IMG/VR virus record: IMGVR_UViG_3300045135_000603
Location: 1-26,669 of that record
Source: a virus
Direction: 5' to 3' (one strand)
DNA length: 26,669 bases
Shown: one piece after another, positions 1-10,625 of the stretch
Layout of the letters: each line of letters starts with the position of its first letter
Numbering within the stretch: position 1 is the first letter of the stretch
Program-made: the position numbers and the translations under genes
Notes under the pieces: generated by a model
What the model saw: only the letters and a program-made list of their open reading frames with translations
Told to the model about the DNA's origin: nothing
Databases searched by the model: none

Positions 1-389
1 TCGTTTCTACACAATTTCCAGAAATTGAGAAACAGATTGGAGTTAAACCATTTAAAGGAACAGCATACCCAAAGATTAATGTGTATGAGTGGGATACCAA
101 AGTTGGTGTCATCGCAGAGATTCCAGGACTATCAAAGAAAGACTTGTCAGTAGAGGTTACTGACGGAGTTCTTACAATTAGTGGAGATAAACATAAGTTG
201 TTTGATGTAGGAGATGCTAAAGTAATTCGTAGAGAATTAAAAGAGTCATCTTTTAAAAGACAATTTGAGTTAGGTGAAGAACTTGACGGAGATAATATCA
301 ATGCTAAATTTGAGGACGGTATACTCTCGATTGAGATTCCAAAGGTAGAACCAGAGAAACCAAAAACAAACAAAATAAAAATCTCTTAA
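1..389 (+). CDS. Hsp20 small heat shock protein, 5' truncated
   Basis: The reading frame is open from base 3 to the stop at 387-389, so the gene begins before the window. The GTG at 81 is an internal valine codon, not a convincing start. The visible 128 residues contain the alpha-crystallin domain: a PKINVYEWD segment, then the hallmark AEIPGLSKKDLSVEV and GVLTISGDK strands, and near the end a FEDGILSIEIPK strand. Small heat shock proteins form oligomers that hold unfolding proteins without ATP. Hsp20 genes are common in T4-like phages of marine bacteria, where a role in virion assembly or host proteostasis is presumed. The next gene is a J-domain-like protein, which suggests a small chaperone module. 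The family call is secure. Length and start are unknown because of the window edge. Confidence 0.9.
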   Translation, partial: VSTQFPEIEKQIGVKPFKGTAYPKINVYEWDTKVGVIAEIPGLSKKDLSVEVTDGVLTISGDKHKLFDVGDAKVIRRELKESSFKRQFELGEELDGDNINAKFEDGILSIEIPKVEPEKPKTNKIKIS

Positions 390-420
390 TTTAAATAAGG
401 TTATATCTATTTATAGTTGA

Positions 421-456
421 GGGGTTTTTAAATTCAAGTGGGAAACTTGGTGCCCC
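421..456 (+). promoter_or_regulatory. Hairpin in the leader of the J-domain-like gene
   Basis: GGGG (421-424) can pair with CCCC (453-456), enclosing a second stem CAAGT (435-439)/ACTTG (445-449) with a GGGAA loop. It lies 12 bases upstream of a start codon that has no recognisable Shine-Dalgarno sequence. It could be a terminator remnant for the Hsp20 gene or a translation-control element. Pairing is seen in sequence; function is inferred. Confidence 0.35.
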
Positions 457-468
457 TTGCTATAAATT

Positions 469-1029
469 ATGGATGATTTAATAAAGTTACGACAAAAAAA
501 GATTCGACAAAAACTTCGTTATCTACAATTAGAATTAATGGAAGCGAAGATTATCTACAAGAACTCTTTACAAAAGTTTCACAAAGACTTTTCACAAGAC
601 ATCAAACCAGATAAAGACAATAAAGAAAAGATTGATGTCAAAGACCCATACGAAGAAATACAAACAGAAGTATCAGATGATACAATGAAAAAAGTATATC
701 GCAAGGTAGCTAATAAAGTTCACCCGGACAAAAAGGGTGGAGATAAGAAAAAGTTCCAGATAGCTGCAAAGGCAAAAAAGAATAATGACTTTGGACAATT
801 ATTAGAAATGGCAGATGAGTTAGAAATTGATATAGAGTTATCAAATGAATTGATTGATGAAATGAATAAACAATGTAATGCAGTTGTGAACAACATCAAC
901 ACAATCAAAACAACAACAGCGTGGACTTGGGCACATTGTCAACCACAAGAACGAGAAGGATTACGACAATACATATTAGCCACCATTACCCCACCAAAAG
1001 ATTTAACAGAGGAAAAAACGAAAAACTAA
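469..1029 (+). CDS. J-domain-like protein (DnaJ-type co-chaperone)
   Basis: This 186-residue protein has a basic, coiled-coil-prone N-terminus (about residues 1-35). A J-domain-like core follows: a helix YRKVANKV leads directly into HPD at residues 85-87, then KKGGDKKKFQIAAKA. The HPD tripeptide between two basic helices is the J-domain signature and is what stimulates Hsp70 ATPase activity. Helix III differs from canonical DnaJ and there is no zinc-finger or client-binding domain, so it would be a minimal J protein redirecting host DnaK. The start lacks a Shine-Dalgarno sequence and follows TATAAATTATGGAT, a 14-mer also found at the start of the gene at 2532. It follows the Hsp20 gene on the same strand. 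J-domain assignment is fairly likely; client and role are unknown. Confidence 0.6.
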   Translation: MDDLIKLRQKKIRQKLRYLQLELMEAKIIYKNSLQKFHKDFSQDIKPDKDNKEKIDVKDPYEEIQTEVSDDTMKKVYRKVANKVHPDKKGGDKKKFQIAAKAKKNNDFGQLLEMADELEIDIELSNELIDEMNKQCNAVVNNINTIKTTTAWTWAHCQPQEREGLRQYILATITPPKDLTEEKTKN

Positions 1030-1032
1030 AAT
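1003..1032 (+). promoter_or_regulatory. Possible sigma70-type promoter for the structured RNA
   Basis: TTAACA (1003-1008) and TAAAAT (1027-1032) each match the sigma70 consensus at five of six positions and are 18 bases apart. Transcription would begin near 1039, just before the structured region. In AT-rich DNA such matches arise by chance, so this is tentative. Confidence 0.3.
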
Positions 1033-1370
1033 TGATATCGTAGAGTTTTCATTCCCAAAACTGCTTGGGTTTAATTTTTGCGGAGTTGAGTGAGAGGTTT
1101 GGATGAGCGACCAAACGAAAGTTCTGATGAGAGAGTGTTCATCAGTCACGATAATAAGTTCCGAAGGGAACTTTAGTGATTTACTAAAAAGTCATCAGAA
1201 GATACCCTAACACAAAGGACAGATAATTGCACTATAAGTTAGGCTGGGTTGTAGACCAAAGATGTAGTGTAATACCAAGCAATACTTGATTTGTTCGGTT
1301 GATATAGCAATCGGACAGGTCAGTTTGAAAAAAATGACGGAATAGTGTGCCCGTCTTATACTTATATTAA
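1033..1370 (+). ncRNA. Putative structured RNA, about 330 nt, unidentified
   Basis: This is the largest gene-free stretch in the window. No plausible protein is seen in it. It contains helices dense enough to suggest a folded RNA: 1097-1102/1111-1116 (6 bp); 1122-1130/1192-1200 (9 bp, perfect); 1146-1149/1176-1179 enclosing 1156-1162/1167-1173 (7 bp, GAAG loop); 1227-1234/1265-1272 (8 bp) crossed by 1206-1211/1238-1243 (6 bp), which makes a pseudoknot; 1292-1301/1308-1317 (10 bp with two G-U pairs); and 1336-1340/1351-1355. It lies between two intact genes. It could be an independent trans-acting RNA or a long leader of the gene at 1388. I do not recognise tRNA, tmRNA, RNase P or a complete group I intron. 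The pairing was found by eye and no energy was computed. Confidence 0.55.
1054..1079 (+). terminator. Weak terminator-like hairpin after the J-domain-like gene
   Basis: CCCAA (1054-1058) pairs with TTGGG (1065-1069) around a 6-base loop and is followed by TTTAATTTTTG. The stem is short, so it may instead be the first helix of the structured RNA. Confidence 0.3.
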
Positions 1371-1387
1371 AGGTGGGAGAAAAAATT

Positions 1388-2290
1388 ATGGAAAACTCAA
1401 AATATTTTTATATATGGATTGGATTGTCAGCATTACTTATCGCAGGTAGTGCAGCAGCATTTTCGGTCTATGGATTAGCAAAACTTTTTAGTGGAGCGTT
1501 CTTATCAGTAGTGGTAATGGCAGGTTCATTAGAATTAGGTAAATTAGTTACGGCATCATTTTTATATCGTTATTGGAATGTGATTAATTATTTCCAAAAA
1601 GTTTATATGACGATAGCAACATTGGTATTGATATTCATTACATCAGCAGGTATCTTTGGATATTTGTCAAACGCGTATCAAGGAGCAACATTAGAATTTG
1701 AAAAACAATCTACTGAACTATTAACAATAGAAGAACGAATAGACCAATTAGAAGAAGATAAAGTTTTTCTAAAAGAAGAATTAGAAGTTGCTATATCTGA
1801 ATTACCAGATAACTACATCACAGCAAAAAGAAAGTTGAGAGAGGATTACAATCCACAGATTTTACAAATCAATAATGAGTTGTTGGAATATAAAAAGACA
1901 AGAGCTGATTTAGAAATACAATTAGTATCTACGGGAGTTGATGTTGGACCAGCAATTTATTTGGCAAGAACTTTCGGAACCGACATAGATACCGTAGTTA
2001 AGTTCTTTATCTTTATTCTTATCTTTGTGTTTGACCCGTTAGCAGTTATGTTAGTCATAGCATATAATCAAGCACTATTAGAAAGAAAACCAAAAGAAAA
2101 AACACAACACGAGAATTGGCAAGACATTTATTCACAACCAACATTGATTGAGGATAATGAACGAATGGATATAATTGGTCAGAACGGAAACGACGGATTA
2201 CATTATGATGTAGAACCAGACATAGAACCAGATGATAATAATAATCCAAATCCACAACCAACAGCAAGAGGTGGAATAAGAATAAAATGA
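1388..2290 (+). CDS. Membrane protein with central coiled coil, unknown function
   Basis: The ATG at 1388 is chosen over the in-frame GTG at 1373 because AGGTGGGAG (1371-1379) sits at the right distance as ribosome site. The product is 300 residues. It has hydrophobic segments near residues 5-25, 32-55 and 72-92, a charged coiled coil of about 90 residues (roughly 103-190), a further hydrophobic segment near 205-230 containing FDPLAVMLVIAY, and an acidic, Asn/Pro-rich tail. This reads as a multi-pass inner-membrane protein with a large coiled loop between the third and fourth helices. No enzymatic motif is visible. It directly follows the structured RNA region and may be its regulated target. 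Family unrecognised; the membrane topology is the only firm statement. Confidence 0.75.
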   Translation: MENSKYFYIWIGLSALLIAGSAAAFSVYGLAKLFSGAFLSVVVMAGSLELGKLVTASFLYRYWNVINYFQKVYMTIATLVLIFITSAGIFGYLSNAYQGATLEFEKQSTELLTIEERIDQLEEDKVFLKEELEVAISELPDNYITAKRKLREDYNPQILQINNELLEYKKTRADLEIQLVSTGVDVGPAIYLARTFGTDIDTVVKFFIFILIFVFDPLAVMLVIAYNQALLERKPKEKTQHENWQDIYSQPTLIEDNERMDIIGQNGNDGLHYDVEPDIEPDDNNNPNPQPTARGGIRIK

Positions 2291-2316
2291 TTTTAACTAC
2301 ACAACAGGAGAATACA

Positions 2317-2478
2317 ATGAGTAAGAAGTATGAGTATAAGTCAAAACTATTTAGAAAAGTTCATCAATTACAAAAACGATTGTATCGGACAGAACAAAAT
2401 CCAGGACATTCAGAGGATAAAGTGTGGTTTAGAGAAATGAGAATTAAGAAGTTAATTAATAAAATTAAAGAAAAATAA
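2317..2478 (+). CDS. Small basic protein, unknown
   Basis: A 53-residue protein very rich in Lys and Arg (begins MSKKYEYKSK, ends KLINKIKEK). The start at 2317 is preferred to the in-frame ATG at 2287 because AGGAG lies 7 bases upstream of it; 2287 would overlap the preceding stop and has no ribosome site. The charge would suit nucleic-acid binding, but there is no recognisable domain. It sits in a run of short accessory genes. Confidence 0.6.
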   Translation: MSKKYEYKSKLFRKVHQLQKRLYRTEQNPGHSEDKVWFREMRIKKLINKIKEK

Positions 2479-2487
2479 AAAAAATGC

Positions 2488-2516
2488 TTGACAAACGAAA
2501 AAAAATGTTGTATATT
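2488..2516 (+). promoter_or_regulatory. Sigma70-type promoter, TTGACA-N17-TATATT
   Basis: A perfect -35 hexamer (2488-2493), exact 17-base spacer and a TATATT -10 (2511-2516) lie in the gap before the gene at 2532. The predicted start near 2523 gives a leader of about 9 bases without a Shine-Dalgarno sequence. Its strong consensus suggests recognition by the host housekeeping polymerase, i.e. an early promoter. Confidence 0.75.
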
Positions 2517-2531
2517 AAGGGTATATAAATT

Positions 2532-2762
2532 ATGGATATTAGAGAAATAGTAAAACGATTAGAAACAATAGAAGCTGAAGCTCGTGATAAAAAACAATAT
2601 GAATTAGAGGATTCGGTTGGTAGACTAATTGAGGATATTATTGAAATTGACTTGGAACAAGAAAAAGAGTTCCAAAAAGAAGTATCCAAATATATAGATG
2701 AAAAAATAGAAAAAGAGTTAGTAAGGAGGGCATACGCGTCAGGTTCAATGGCGCAAGCGTAA
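2532..2762 (+). CDS. Small acidic helical protein, unknown
   Basis: A 76-residue protein, strongly charged and predicted mostly alpha-helical with heptad-like spacing (KRLETIEAEARDKK, then a Glu/Lys-rich second half). It is the first gene behind a consensus promoter at 2488-2516 and has a very short leader, so it is probably expressed early. No family recognised. Small, acidic, early phage proteins are often host-takeover or anti-defence factors, but nothing in the sequence shows that here. Confidence 0.65.
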   Translation: MDIREIVKRLETIEAEARDKKQYELEDSVGRLIEDIIEIDLEQEKEFQKEVSKYIDEKIEKELVRRAYASGSMAQA

Positions 2763-2767
2763 AAGAT

Positions 2768-3214
2768 ATGAGTAAGTTTGAAGATAATGGTGGTTATTAC
2801 ATTGACGGAGTTCCTTATATGGATTGTAAATATACTGGAATACCAGTTAAGAATGTAAGTGAAGATGCCACATATGTTATTAGTGATAAAGCGTTACAAT
2901 CAAGAATGTATAAAATGTTTCCAGAGGATTTTGCGGAAAAGACGAAGTATAAACCAACAGGTCGTCCTGCTGGTTGGCACTTTATGAACGAGTTTGTTGA
3001 TAAAGACGGAAATGTTTTTCACAAAGGTAAAGAACAACCTAAACTAAAAGGAACTTTACCACCGACAAAAGTCAAACCAAAAAAGAAAGTCAAAAGAAAA
3101 ACCAAAGATGAAATCTTGGTTGCTCGTCATAAAGAAAAGTTAGCAGTTGAAAGAAAACTAAAAAAAGATTTAGACAAACAAAAAAAATTCCTAATGGGAG
3201 AGGTTGATAAATGA
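2768..3214 (+). CDS. Unknown protein with basic C-terminal half
   Basis: A 148-residue protein. The N-terminal half (about 1-90) is compact and aromatic-rich, with paired motifs of the type DGVPYMDCKYTG and KDGNVFHKGKEQ that could form small beta-hairpins. The C-terminal half is very Lys-rich (a KVKPKKKVKRK patch) and helical, suitable for binding nucleic acid or ribosomes. It starts 5 bases after the previous stop with no clear Shine-Dalgarno site, so it is probably translationally coupled. Not recognised. Confidence 0.65.
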   Translation: MSKFEDNGGYYIDGVPYMDCKYTGIPVKNVSEDATYVISDKALQSRMYKMFPEDFAEKTKYKPTGRPAGWHFMNEFVDKDGNVFHKGKEQPKLKGTLPPTKVKPKKKVKRKTKDEILVARHKEKLAVERKLKKDLDKQKKFLMGEVDK

Positions 3215-3405
3215 TAATGAAAAAAAGATTAGTAATTGGTAAATTACTAAAAGGTGATAAAAGATTAGACGGAGAAACTTTCGTAGAATACAAAGAAAGA
3301 ATGAAATTAGAAAAGTCTTTATTAAAGGATTATCTATCTGGTGTTTGGGTCACCACAGAAGAATTTAGGAATAATAAGCAAAAAACACTTGACAAATTAA
3401 AATAA
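3211..3405 (+). CDS. Small basic protein, unknown
   Basis: A 64-residue, Lys/Leu-rich, probably helical protein. The start overlaps the previous stop (ATGA at 3211-3214) and a GGAGAGG ribosome site precedes it; an alternative ATG lies at 3217. The -35 of the next promoter falls within its last codons. No domain recognised. Confidence 0.6.
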   Translation: MIMKKRLVIGKLLKGDKRLDGETFVEYKERMKLEKSLLKDYLSGVWVTTEEFRNNKQKTLDKLK

Positions 3406-3417
3406 ATAGGTTATATT
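3389..3417 (+). promoter_or_regulatory. Sigma70-type promoter giving a predicted leaderless transcript
   Basis: TTGACA (3389-3394), a 17-base spacer and TATATT (3412-3417) overlap the end of the preceding gene. Only six bases (AAGGTT) separate the -10 from the ATG at 3424, so the expected transcription start coincides with the start codon. Confidence 0.75.
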
Positions 3418-3423
3418 AAGGTT

Positions 3424-4347
3424 ATGAATTTAGGTTATGCGTGTATCAATATGAAGTTGTCGTATCCAAAAAAATATGGATTGGACCAACATAGAATAAC
3501 AATGAACAGAAGTATGATTAAACGAACCTTTGATGAAAAGGGTTTGGATTATACATCTGAATTAGTTATGAAAAATGTTGCAGACTTACATAAGATTATA
3601 CAATGGAACGAAGACAATGGTATCAAGTTCTTTCGTATGTCATCAGAAACATTTCCTTGGGCATCCGAGTATTACAAAGATTGGACACAATTTCCAAACA
3701 TTAGATTTATTCACGCAATGTTATCTGATTGTGGTAAGTTAGCAACTCAATACGGACACAGACTGACTGCTCACCCAGGACCTTTCAATGTATTGGTATC
3801 ACCAAACGAAGATGTAGTTCAGAACACAATCACAGATTTGACTATACACGCAGACATTATGGACTTTATGGGTTTATCAAGAACACCATACAACAAACTC
3901 AACATACATTGTAATGGTGTGTATGGAGATAAACAATCTGCTATGGATAGGTTTTGTAAAAACTTTGAACGACTACCCGAGTCAGTTCAGACAAGACTTA
4001 CCGTAGAGAACGACGATAAAGCATCTATGTATTCAGTAAAAGATTTATACGAGGGTATTCACAAACGAATCGGAATACCAATTGTGTTTGACTACCATCA
4101 TTACAAGTTCAACACCGGAGAACAAACAGAACAAGAAGCATTAGAAATGGCATTATCTACTTGGGGAGATGTAAAACCAGTAGTTCATTATTCAGAAAGT
4201 CGTTCCGTAGAACAATTAGATGAGTCAATCAAACCACAAGCACACTCGGACTTAATTAAAGAATTACCAAATACCTACGGACACGATGTAGATATTATGG
4301 TAGAAGCAAAACACAAAGAATTAGCAATAGAGAGGTTTATAAAATGA
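3424..4347 (+). CDS. uvsE: UV-damage endonuclease, UvdE/UvsE family
   Basis: A 307-residue TIM-barrel endonuclease that nicks DNA 5' to UV photoproducts, starting an alternative excision repair. The family's metal-site motifs are in order: LTAHPGPF with H117, NIHCNG with H162, LTVENDD with E195 and D197, FDYHH with D223 and H225/H226, and VVHYSES with H255. Length matches bacterial UvdE (about 300). It is expressed from its own promoter, apparently leaderless, and its stop overlaps the start of the RimK-like gene (ATGA). A photorepair gene makes sense for a phage of sunlit water. Identification is strong; the exact substrate range is not determinable from sequence. Confidence 0.92.
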   Translation: MNLGYACINMKLSYPKKYGLDQHRITMNRSMIKRTFDEKGLDYTSELVMKNVADLHKIIQWNEDNGIKFFRMSSETFPWASEYYKDWTQFPNIRFIHAMLSDCGKLATQYGHRLTAHPGPFNVLVSPNEDVVQNTITDLTIHADIMDFMGLSRTPYNKLNIHCNGVYGDKQSAMDRFCKNFERLPESVQTRLTVENDDKASMYSVKDLYEGIHKRIGIPIVFDYHHYKFNTGEQTEQEALEMALSTWGDVKPVVHYSESRSVEQLDESIKPQAHSDLIKELPNTYGHDVDIMVEAKHKELAIERFIK

Positions 4348-5237
4348 ATGGTTGGATAATACATAAAAAACAATTAGGAGAAAATCACGAAGTCCAAAGA
4401 CTTGTTGAAGAGTTTGAAAAACGAGGAGTTAAGATTCGTGTAGTTAATCCACAAGATGTAGATATATTTGTTGATAGAGATGATAGAAACTCTATATTGG
4501 TTGAGGGTAAACCAAGAAGACTTCCAGACTTTGTATTACCGAGAACCGGAAGTGGAACAACTTACTTCATCAAAGCAATCATCAGACATATGGAAAGACT
4601 TGGTGTCACGATGATTAACGGAAGTGATGCCATTGACAATGTTAAAGATAAATTATATTCACAACAAATACTTGGACAATCAAATTTACCTTGTCCAAAA
4701 ACTATGTTGGTAAAGCATCCGATTAATGTAAAAATGATAGAGGATAATTTAAGTTATCCAATGATTGTAAAAACTTTAAGTGGTAGTTATGGTAGTGGAG
4801 TGTTTATGGTGGAGAACAGAAAACAATTTGTTCAGATGATGAAAATGGCAGAGATAACTAAACCAAGTTATAATATTATTATACAAGAATGTATAGAAGA
4901 TTCTTTCGGTAAAGACTTACGAGTATTGGTAGTGAATGGTAAAGTTGCAGGTTGTATGATGAGACAATCAGTTGACGGAGACTTTCGTGCAAACTTAACT
5001 CGTGGTGGAGAAGCAATTCCTTATCAAGTTGATGATGACATTGAGTGGATTAGTGGAGAGAGTGCAAGACTTTTAGATTTAGATATAGCAGGAGTTGACT
5101 TGTTATTTAACGGAGATAGTTATACTATTTGTGAGGTTAATTCAGCACCAGGTTTTGAAGGTATGGAAAAATATACCAAGGTAAACATCGCAGAAAAAAT
5201 GGTAGACTATATAATTAAAAAAGTGGGAAGTAAATAG
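4344..5237 (+). CDS. RimK-like ATP-grasp ligase
   Basis: A 297-residue ATP-grasp enzyme. It has a pre-ATP-grasp N-terminal domain (about 1-95), then the nucleotide-binding MIVKTLSGSYGSG (glycine-rich loop at 146-152), FGKDLRVLVVNGK, a FRANLTRGGEA segment, and the metal-binding CEVNSAPGFEGME with E264 and N266. These match RimK-type enzymes, which add glutamate residues to a protein C-terminus (ribosomal protein S6 in Escherichia coli) or ligate amino acids to small acids. The start overlaps the UvdE stop and has an AGAGAGG ribosome site, so the two are translationally coupled. The substrate here is unknown: host S6, a phage protein, or a small molecule. The family call is strong. Confidence 0.88.
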   Translation: MNGWIIHKKQLGENHEVQRLVEEFEKRGVKIRVVNPQDVDIFVDRDDRNSILVEGKPRRLPDFVLPRTGSGTTYFIKAIIRHMERLGVTMINGSDAIDNVKDKLYSQQILGQSNLPCPKTMLVKHPINVKMIEDNLSYPMIVKTLSGSYGSGVFMVENRKQFVQMMKMAEITKPSYNIIIQECIEDSFGKDLRVLVVNGKVAGCMMRQSVDGDFRANLTRGGEAIPYQVDDDIEWISGESARLLDLDIAGVDLLFNGDSYTICEVNSAPGFEGMEKYTKVNIAEKMVDYIIKKVGSK

Positions 5238-10215: not shown

Positions 10216-10216
10216 T

Positions 10217-10248
10217 AAAAAAAAGGGGTGATATTCTCACCCCTTTTT
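10217..10248. terminator. Bidirectional intrinsic terminator
   Basis: GGGGTGA (10225-10231) pairs perfectly with TCACCCC (10237-10243) around a TATTC loop. Eight A residues lie on the left and five T residues on the right. Both strands therefore read as a GC-rich stem followed by a U-run, right for the convergent genes ending at 10215 (+) and 10258 (-). Confidence 0.92.
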
Positions 10249-10257
10249 AATCCACCT

Positions 10258-10479
10258 TTATTTGTTAAGTAATCCAAGTATCACGATAAGTGATATAAAT
10301 CCAGCAAACCCTGCGTTTCCGATAGTGTTTACTAAACTTACTAAATTACCAACAATGTCTATTCCAAGGAATCCACCTACAAATACTAATTGTACGAGAA
10401 CCCCTAATCCGACTATGTGAAGTAGTAAGTCTTTAATTCCACCTACTGCTTCCATAATCATTTTGATTGTGTCTTTCAT
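10258..10479 (-). CDS. Small two-helix membrane protein, holin-like in size
   Basis: This is the only minus-strand gene in the window. The start at 10479 is chosen over an in-frame ATG at 10554 because AAAGGGGGAAA precedes it and the upstream extension would translate a hairpin. The 73-residue product has an amphipathic N-terminus (MKDTIKMIMEAVGG) and two hydrophobic helices near residues 18-40 and 50-71, very rich in Gly, Val, Leu and Ile, with a short polar link. Holins look like this, but so do other small phage membrane proteins. Transcription is isolated by a bidirectional terminator downstream. The function is not established. Confidence 0.65.
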   Translation of the reverse strand: MKDTIKMIMEAVGGIKDLLLHIVGLGVLVQLVFVGGFLGIDIVGNLVSLVNTIGNAGFAGFISLIVILGLLNK

Positions 10480-10505
10480 TTTAGTTTCCCCCTTTAAATG
10501 AACAA

Positions 10506-10527
10506 AAATCGGCGTCAAAACCGATTT
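10506..10527 (-). terminator. Attenuator-like hairpin in the leader of the minus-strand gene
   Basis: Read on the minus strand, AAATCGG pairs with CCGATTT (7 bp, 8-base loop) and continues into TTTTTGTT, the form of an intrinsic terminator. It sits 26 bases before the start codon, between that gene and its presumed promoter, so it could attenuate expression. Confidence 0.45.
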
Positions 10528-10570
10528 CGTATAATAACTATATAGTAAAATCAAAAAAATTAATCAGTAT

Positions 10571-10579
10571 ATAAATATA
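10571..10579 (-). promoter_or_regulatory. TATATTTAT motif on the minus strand
   Basis: The plus strand reads ATAAATATA, so the minus strand carries the same 9-mer as the plus-strand late-promoter candidates, directed at the membrane-protein gene about 90 bases away. The plus strand here also spells TATAAATA (10570-10577), the T4 late -10 consensus, so orientation is ambiguous. Confidence 0.4.
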
Positions 10580-10601
10580 TATCCCTATTTTTCCATAACT
10601 C

Positions 10602-10610
10602 TATATTTAT
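10602..10610 (+). promoter_or_regulatory. TATATTTAT motif, candidate late promoter of the structural block
   Basis: It lies 15 bases before the ATG at 10626, the first gene of the 12.5 kb structural run. With a -10 here the transcript would have a leader of about 10 bases carrying a minimal AGGT ribosome site. Confidence 0.5.
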
Positions 10611-10625
10611 TGTTAGGTAAAATTT

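Follow-up and report, generated by a model that had tools for sequence, protein, structure and literature searches.

The 343-base gap at positions 1030 to 1372 of the window (the whole 26,669-nucleotide stretch of viral DNA analysed here, IMG/VR record IMGVR_UViG_3300045135_000603) encodes, with near certainty, a structured RNA on the + strand. That the RNA founds a new family among structured phage RNAs, unlike any in Rfam 15, is nearly certain too, and our confidence that it is real, conserved and outside every known family is very high. The gap itself, first pointed out in an earlier note on this DNA, is genuine: it separates the stop codon of a DnaJ-like gene (1029) from the next start codon (1373 or 1388), and no + strand open reading frame (ORF) of 40 aa was found within it.

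The window, a fragment from the genome of an uncultured virus, carries gp25- and gp6-like genes of a phage baseplate wedge as well as genes for Hsp20, a DnaJ-like protein and UvdE. Its baseplate protein is nearest to that of Microcystis phage Mel-JY01 and Flavobacterium phage immuto, and its presumed marine source derives from the earlier note and from the setting of the relatives. Within positions 1-5237, genes for Hsp20, the DnaJ-like protein, the UvdE endonuclease and a RimK-like ATP-grasp enzyme are clustered; a tblastn search of phage records with the DnaJ-like protein returned no match. A long hairpin at 409-467 (AUUUAUAGU.GAGGGG ... CCCCUUGCUAUAAAU) has its 3' end two bases before the ATG of the dnaJ-like gene, which lacks a Shine-Dalgarno sequence in the window; the hairpin is kept, with a variable loop, in L006, L008, L009 and L016 and may possibly be a translational control element of that gene. 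Another gap, at 10216-10625, may contain a small gene for a hydrophobic protein on the - strand (10258-10554, 98 aa) and has two TATAYTTAT motifs that point outwards. Neither tRNA nor tmRNA genes were found in the window (ARAGORN; Rfam), and tRNA genes lie 3' of the locus in several relatives (L087 3591-3663, L094 8766-8839, L101 5722-5795 and L013 3226-3299).

Folded as + strand RNA, positions 1022-1387 reach -98.8 kcal/mol, compared with -76.6 +/- 5.1 kcal/mol in shuffled sequences (z -4.3; 0 of 100 shuffles as good), and the opposite strand of the gap folds less well (z -2.9). No match in the whole window attained the Rfam 15 gathering threshold, and at E up to 10 the region 900-1500 yielded just three matches, each scoring far under its threshold: mir-92, mir-1297, which falls within the membrane-protein gene, and RAGATH-35; the same search on ten homologous loci gave nothing relevant. 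We found no description of this RNA in the open-access subset of the literature. Length differences among the homologues do not come in codon steps, which, together with the lack of an ORF, indicates an untranslated region. The earlier note's proposal of a structured RNA of no recognised class is thus borne out by folding energy, by compensatory changes (see below) and by the absence of translation. Two of the helices that it listed are present exactly as described: the 10-bp stem 1292-1301/1308-1317 (UGUUCGGUUG/CAAUCGGACA), which corresponds to P6, the best-supported helix of all, and the 7-bp GAAG hairpin at 1156-1173 (AAGUUCC-GAAG-GGAACUU), which lies inside an optional domain. Its suggestion of an own promoter at 1003-1032 was not supported, the 8 promoter-like sites found being not above chance (5.6 expected); a better candidate motif, TATACTTAT at 1357-1365, is situated at the opposite end of the gap.

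An exact 20-base pattern from the gap is present in seven IMG/VR contigs. Pattern scans and protein-anchored scans of IMG/VR, together with nhmmer and a covariance model (R1), brought the number of distinct sequences to 15, including the window (L002, L004, L005, L007, L008, L009, L012, L014, L016, L018, L026, L087, L094 and L101). The 13 complete sequences score 138-243 bits with R1, which was built from them; the independent matches are L014, truncated by the contig end (114 bits), and L101 (65.6 bits, E 2e-14, E-values being rough after a short calibration). L101 (2350-2632) retains the 3' part alone, from P6 to a promoter-like motif, behind a different 5' part that is still strongly folded (z -3.3), and looks as if RNA domains had been swapped. 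Each contig searched carries one strong R1 match. Among 32 contigs with the membrane-protein gene, 29 gave no match at E <= 0.001, and the other three comprise two known members and one weak match (22 bits); the RNA is absent from most phages sharing the hsp20-membrane locus. When three versions of the RNA were compared by blastn with 50,697 phage records, there were no matches or only short ones at E 0.2-0.3, and a core-motif scan of the genome collection returned 18 stretches, about the number that chance is estimated to give, of which R1 confirmed none. At the sensitivity used, the RNA was thus found in neither named phage records nor bacterial genomes. Two weak model matches were discarded: G018 has little in common with the family beyond the promoter-like tail, and G015 was not reproduced on re-search.

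The RNA measures about 240 nt without the optional domain and 330-370 nt with it. Its core consists of six helices and one pseudoknot, laid out in the window as follows.

469 to 1029, + strand: upstream gene, DnaJ-like protein with an HPD motif (Pfam DnaJ, 27.7 bits; cut-off 27.8)
1036 to 1356, + strand: RNA as modelled, conserved core plus optional domain 1123-1205 (R1 match 1036-1365, 187 bits; ends approximate)
1054 to 1069, + strand: P1, 5' hairpin CCCAA/UUGGG (strand table; also picked by the terminator scan)
1075 to 1096, + strand: P2, hairpin UUUUUGC/GUGAGAG (weak support, with pairing in 76% of cells)
1097 to 1116, + strand: P3, hairpin GUUUGG-AUGAGCGA-CCAAAC (covariation: GUCUGG/CCAGAC, GUUAG/CUAAC)
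1123 to 1205, + strand: optional domain, 83 nt, holding the GAAG hairpin (homologue comparison)
1206 to 1211, + strand: pseudoknot 5' strand CCUAAC (covariation; RNAalifold)
1226 to 1273, + strand: P4, outer stem AUUGCACUA (1226-1234) / UAGUGUAAU (1265-1273) (individual folds)
1238 to 1243, + strand: pseudoknot 3' strand GUUAGG (covariation; RNAalifold)
1244 to 1259, + strand: P5, CUGG/CCAA with loop GUUGUAGA (1248-1255) (covariation)
1292 to 1317, + strand: P6, 10-bp stem with loop AUAUAG (1302-1307) (covariation; strand table)
1336 to 1355, + strand: 3' hairpin GACGG/CCGUC (weak; position kept, sequence inconsistent between relatives)
1357 to 1365, + strand: TATACTTAT, probable phage promoter of the next gene, at the 3' edge of the RNA (motif scan)
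1388 to 2290, + strand: downstream gene, conserved membrane protein (GTG at 1373 is an alternative start)

The helices persist while their sequences change. P1 reads CCAC-UUCG-GUGG or ACCC-GAAA-GGGU in relatives, and the P5 pairs vary among CUGG/CCAG, CGGG/CCCG and CGAG/CUCG. P4 encloses P5 and the 3' strand of the pseudoknot, which crosses it; in L094 the strands of P4 are almost wholly replaced (GGUAAUCUUA/UAAGGUUACC) and the pseudoknot is formed by CCUAUU/AAUAGG instead of CCUAAC/GUUAGG. The loop GUUGUAGA is invariant in 13 of 13 aligned rows, as is the strand AAGUCCUA, which bridges the point where the optional domain was excised from the rows of the window, L005, L007, L008, L009 and L016; the P6 loop is near-invariant, with UAUAG in all 13 rows. 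T-loops follow the pattern U-U-N-N-A, which the P5 loop (G-UUGUAGA-C) fits, so that it may be called T-loop-like. The outer helix in the window's minimum-energy fold, GCUUGGG/CCAAGC, lacks conservation, and the model has P1 in its place; a possible contact between UCGU at the 5' end and GCGA in the P3 loop was dropped, no double changes being seen by eye. A systematic search for further covarying helices yielded nothing new.

Covariation was measured on an alignment (A4) of the 13 sequences, made by sequence only after the optional domain had been excised. P1-P6 and the pseudoknot are paired in 85.7% of its cells, compared with 77.4 +/- 0.9% in shuffles and 33-46% when slid; double changes affect 20 of 42 pairs (10.8 expected from shuffles) and 46 cells (17 in shuffles), in sequences that are mutually related, so that cells are not independent events. 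The covariation measure is 0.294, against 0.167 in shuffles, and none of 500 shuffles reached any of these values. RNAalifold, unaided, recovers P3, P5, P6 and both strands of the pseudoknot. Pairing the strands by hand, a procedure biased towards the structure, gives 59/60 paired cells for P1, 76/76 for P3, 78/78 for the pseudoknot, 91/91 for P4, 46/52 for P5 and 104/108 for P6. The hand-aligned helices contain 29 G-U and 5 A-C cells, which fits an RNA made from the + strand.

Between P3 and the pseudoknot, the core accommodates a domain of 112-125 nt in L005, L007, L009 and L016, of which the 83 nt of the window are a shorter version; seven sequences lack it (L002, L004, L012, L018, L026, L087 and L094). 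Its presence is patchy: L002 (without) and L005 (with) share 89.5% core identity, and L026 (without) and L016 (with) 84.4%. Between the two deep lineages, which are separated in the RNA-core tree, the long domain is more alike than the core, with 84% (L005-L016), 87% (L007-L016) and 80% (L005-L009) identity in the domain and 65, 64 and 62%, respectively, in the core (overall 80-87% in the domain against 62-66% in the core). The simplest reading is that the domain has been exchanged between lineages by recombination, which, should it be borne out, would be an uncommon way for an RNA to evolve; slow evolution of the domain combined with repeated loss is the alternative. In L005, L009 and L016, the domain carries a second GUUGUAGA loop in a 5-bp hairpin (AAGUA-GUUGUAGA-UGCUU), that is, the same eight bases as in the invariant P5 loop.

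The genes around the RNA change from phage to phage. It is preceded by the DnaJ-like gene in the window, L008, L009 and L018, where it starts a few bases past the stop codon, by ORF X in L002, L004, L005, L007, L012, L016, L026 and L094, and by another small ORF in L087. ORF X, directly 5' of the RNA, encodes about 60-80 aa (..IGNDRYVVLGTVKVSSGYSPETIKSMYGLADTVLRNG..), lies just upstream of 2612 in L016 and has no match in PHROG at E up to 1. The gene that follows is dnaJ-like in L002, L004, L005, L007 and L094, the membrane protein in the window, L008, L012, L016, L018 and L026, and a Zn-ribbon ORF in L009. By this comparison of loci, the RNA is an accessory that occupies a position of variable content within a syntenic block, on the + strand and immediately after a short gene belonging to the hsp20 cluster. 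Measured in nine relatives, the distance from the upstream stop codon to the start of the RNA ranges from -39 to +2 nt. The RNA ends at a TATAYTTAT-like element (TAYTTAT in 13 of 13 rows), and such a motif lies between RNA and next gene in every full-length relative. TATAYTTAT occurs in the window at 1357, 5823, 10602, 23185 and 25968 (+) and at 10571 (-), and all six sites are intergenic and oriented towards the next gene. Across 15 sources, of which three overlap in part, 37 sites fall outside ORFs (25.5 kb of sequence) and 18 within them (142 kb), an enrichment which indicates that the motif is likely a promoter of these phages. It is also seen about 66 nt 5' of hsp20 in several relatives and resembles the T4 late promoter in look.

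Given that phage genomes are compact, a non-coding fold of 240-370 nt whose invariant loops are kept across deep lineages of marine phages implies a task that repays its cost. The best explanation, which we advance tentatively and with slightly less than even confidence from context and conservation, is a trans-acting accessory RNA. It would be transcribed together with the hsp20 cluster, as the 3' portion of that transcript, or else from a promoter of its own, and would then be released or persist as a stable RNA; no intrinsic terminator was found 3' of the RNA on the + strand, so that a separate transcript would require processing. The RNA would act in trans as a compact docking RNA: in the course of infection, its conserved loops would bind a protein or an RNA of phage or host, and it might, for example, serve as a decoy. 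A CsrA decoy based on GGA motifs was considered and set aside, since the GGAs vary among homologues, as judged by eye. The trans-acting reading is favoured by the complex fold and conserved loops being kept while the neighbours change, and by the presumed promoter of the next gene skipping the RNA. Against it stand the missing terminator and the confinement of all members to a single short stretch of related phage genomes, between two genes on the same strand, as would also hold for a cis element.

A cis-acting control region for the downstream gene is nonetheless somewhat unlikely. The fold would then be a 5' leader on hsp20/dnaJ read-through transcripts and switch the next gene, at the level of transcription or translation, in the manner of an attenuator or riboswitch, consistent with its constant strand, its closeness to the next start and its invariant loops and pseudoknot, which are typical of aptamers; manA, also a marine-phage RNA, has been reported upstream of ibpA (hsp20-type) chaperone genes (PMC2864571). 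However, the downstream gene varies between phages, so that the association with one gene class expected of a riboswitch is not constant among relatives. Moreover, transcripts from the promoter-like motif would not include the leader, and the next gene could be transcribed without the RNA. The variation of both flanking genes and the lack of the RNA in most relatives of the locus likewise argue against a leader tied to one gene and point to a trans-acting accessory RNA. The earlier note had left the choice between a new ncRNA and a regulatory leader; the varying downstream gene and the intervening motif favour the former.

That the RNA abuts the upstream stop codon and ends where the promoter-like motif begins would suit a 3' UTR element that blocks exonucleases, or one by which the hsp20-cluster transcript is terminated or insulated ahead of the next promoter. 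We consider this quite unlikely: the upstream gene varies too (DnaJ-like, ORF X or another small ORF), a plain barrier would not require invariant loops or a 240-nt fold, there is no + strand terminator, and most relatives of the locus manage without the RNA. A ribozyme or degenerate self-splicing intron is very improbable, the flanks of the RNA being complete genes and a promoter-like motif rather than exons and no Rfam intron or ribozyme matching, even if P4 and the pseudoknot resemble the P7/P3 arrangement of group I, with its P3-P7 pseudoknot topology. It is scarcely credible that there is no RNA function at all, the gap being a DNA-level element or a gene-poor stretch that folds by chance; DNA-level hairpins would covary as well, and nothing else specific speaks for it, but covariation exceeds that of all shuffles and G-U cells outnumber A-C cells.

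Returning to the trans-acting RNA, a bolder version, which we regard as unlikely, would make it a new functional class, a modular RNA that presents its pseudoknot and T-loop-like hairpin to host machinery for docking, with the removable domain passing between phage lineages faster than the core. If true, phages would mix and match RNA domains like protein domains. The family, absent from Rfam release 15, is of tractable size, has a defined pseudoknot and includes members from which the optional domain is naturally deleted, features that make its function testable.

By setting, the nearest known RNAs, phage structured RNAs themselves, are manA and wcaG (Rfam RF01745 and RF01761) of marine T4-like phages (PMC2864571), which are described as elements of the 5' UTR, where a metabolic, photosynthesis or chaperone gene would be expected to follow. 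Their models do not match the window RNA even at E up to 10, and, unlike them, it follows the hsp20 cluster and is itself followed by a promoter-like motif; the next gene is dnaJ-like in five relatives and another one elsewhere, with the motif in between. The group I intron core (RF00028) shares with it a P7/P3-like order (pseudoknot 5' strand, P4 5' strand, pseudoknot 3' strand, hairpin, P4 3' strand), but the window RNA has no P4-P6 domain, exons or RF00028 match, and the spacing of about 14-30 nt between pseudoknot and P4 in all 13 aligned members leaves no room for P4-P6; a group I reading was rejected on these grounds. GOLLD and ROOL, which occur in phages, are large structured RNAs of unknown purpose, as is the RNA described here; they are much larger than its 240-370 nt, which match nothing in Rfam. 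RNA complexes of ROOL and GOLLD are described in PMC12286853. Finally, set in an overall fold that is not tRNA-like, the P5 loop fits the sequence pattern of the T-loop modules known from the T arm of tRNA.
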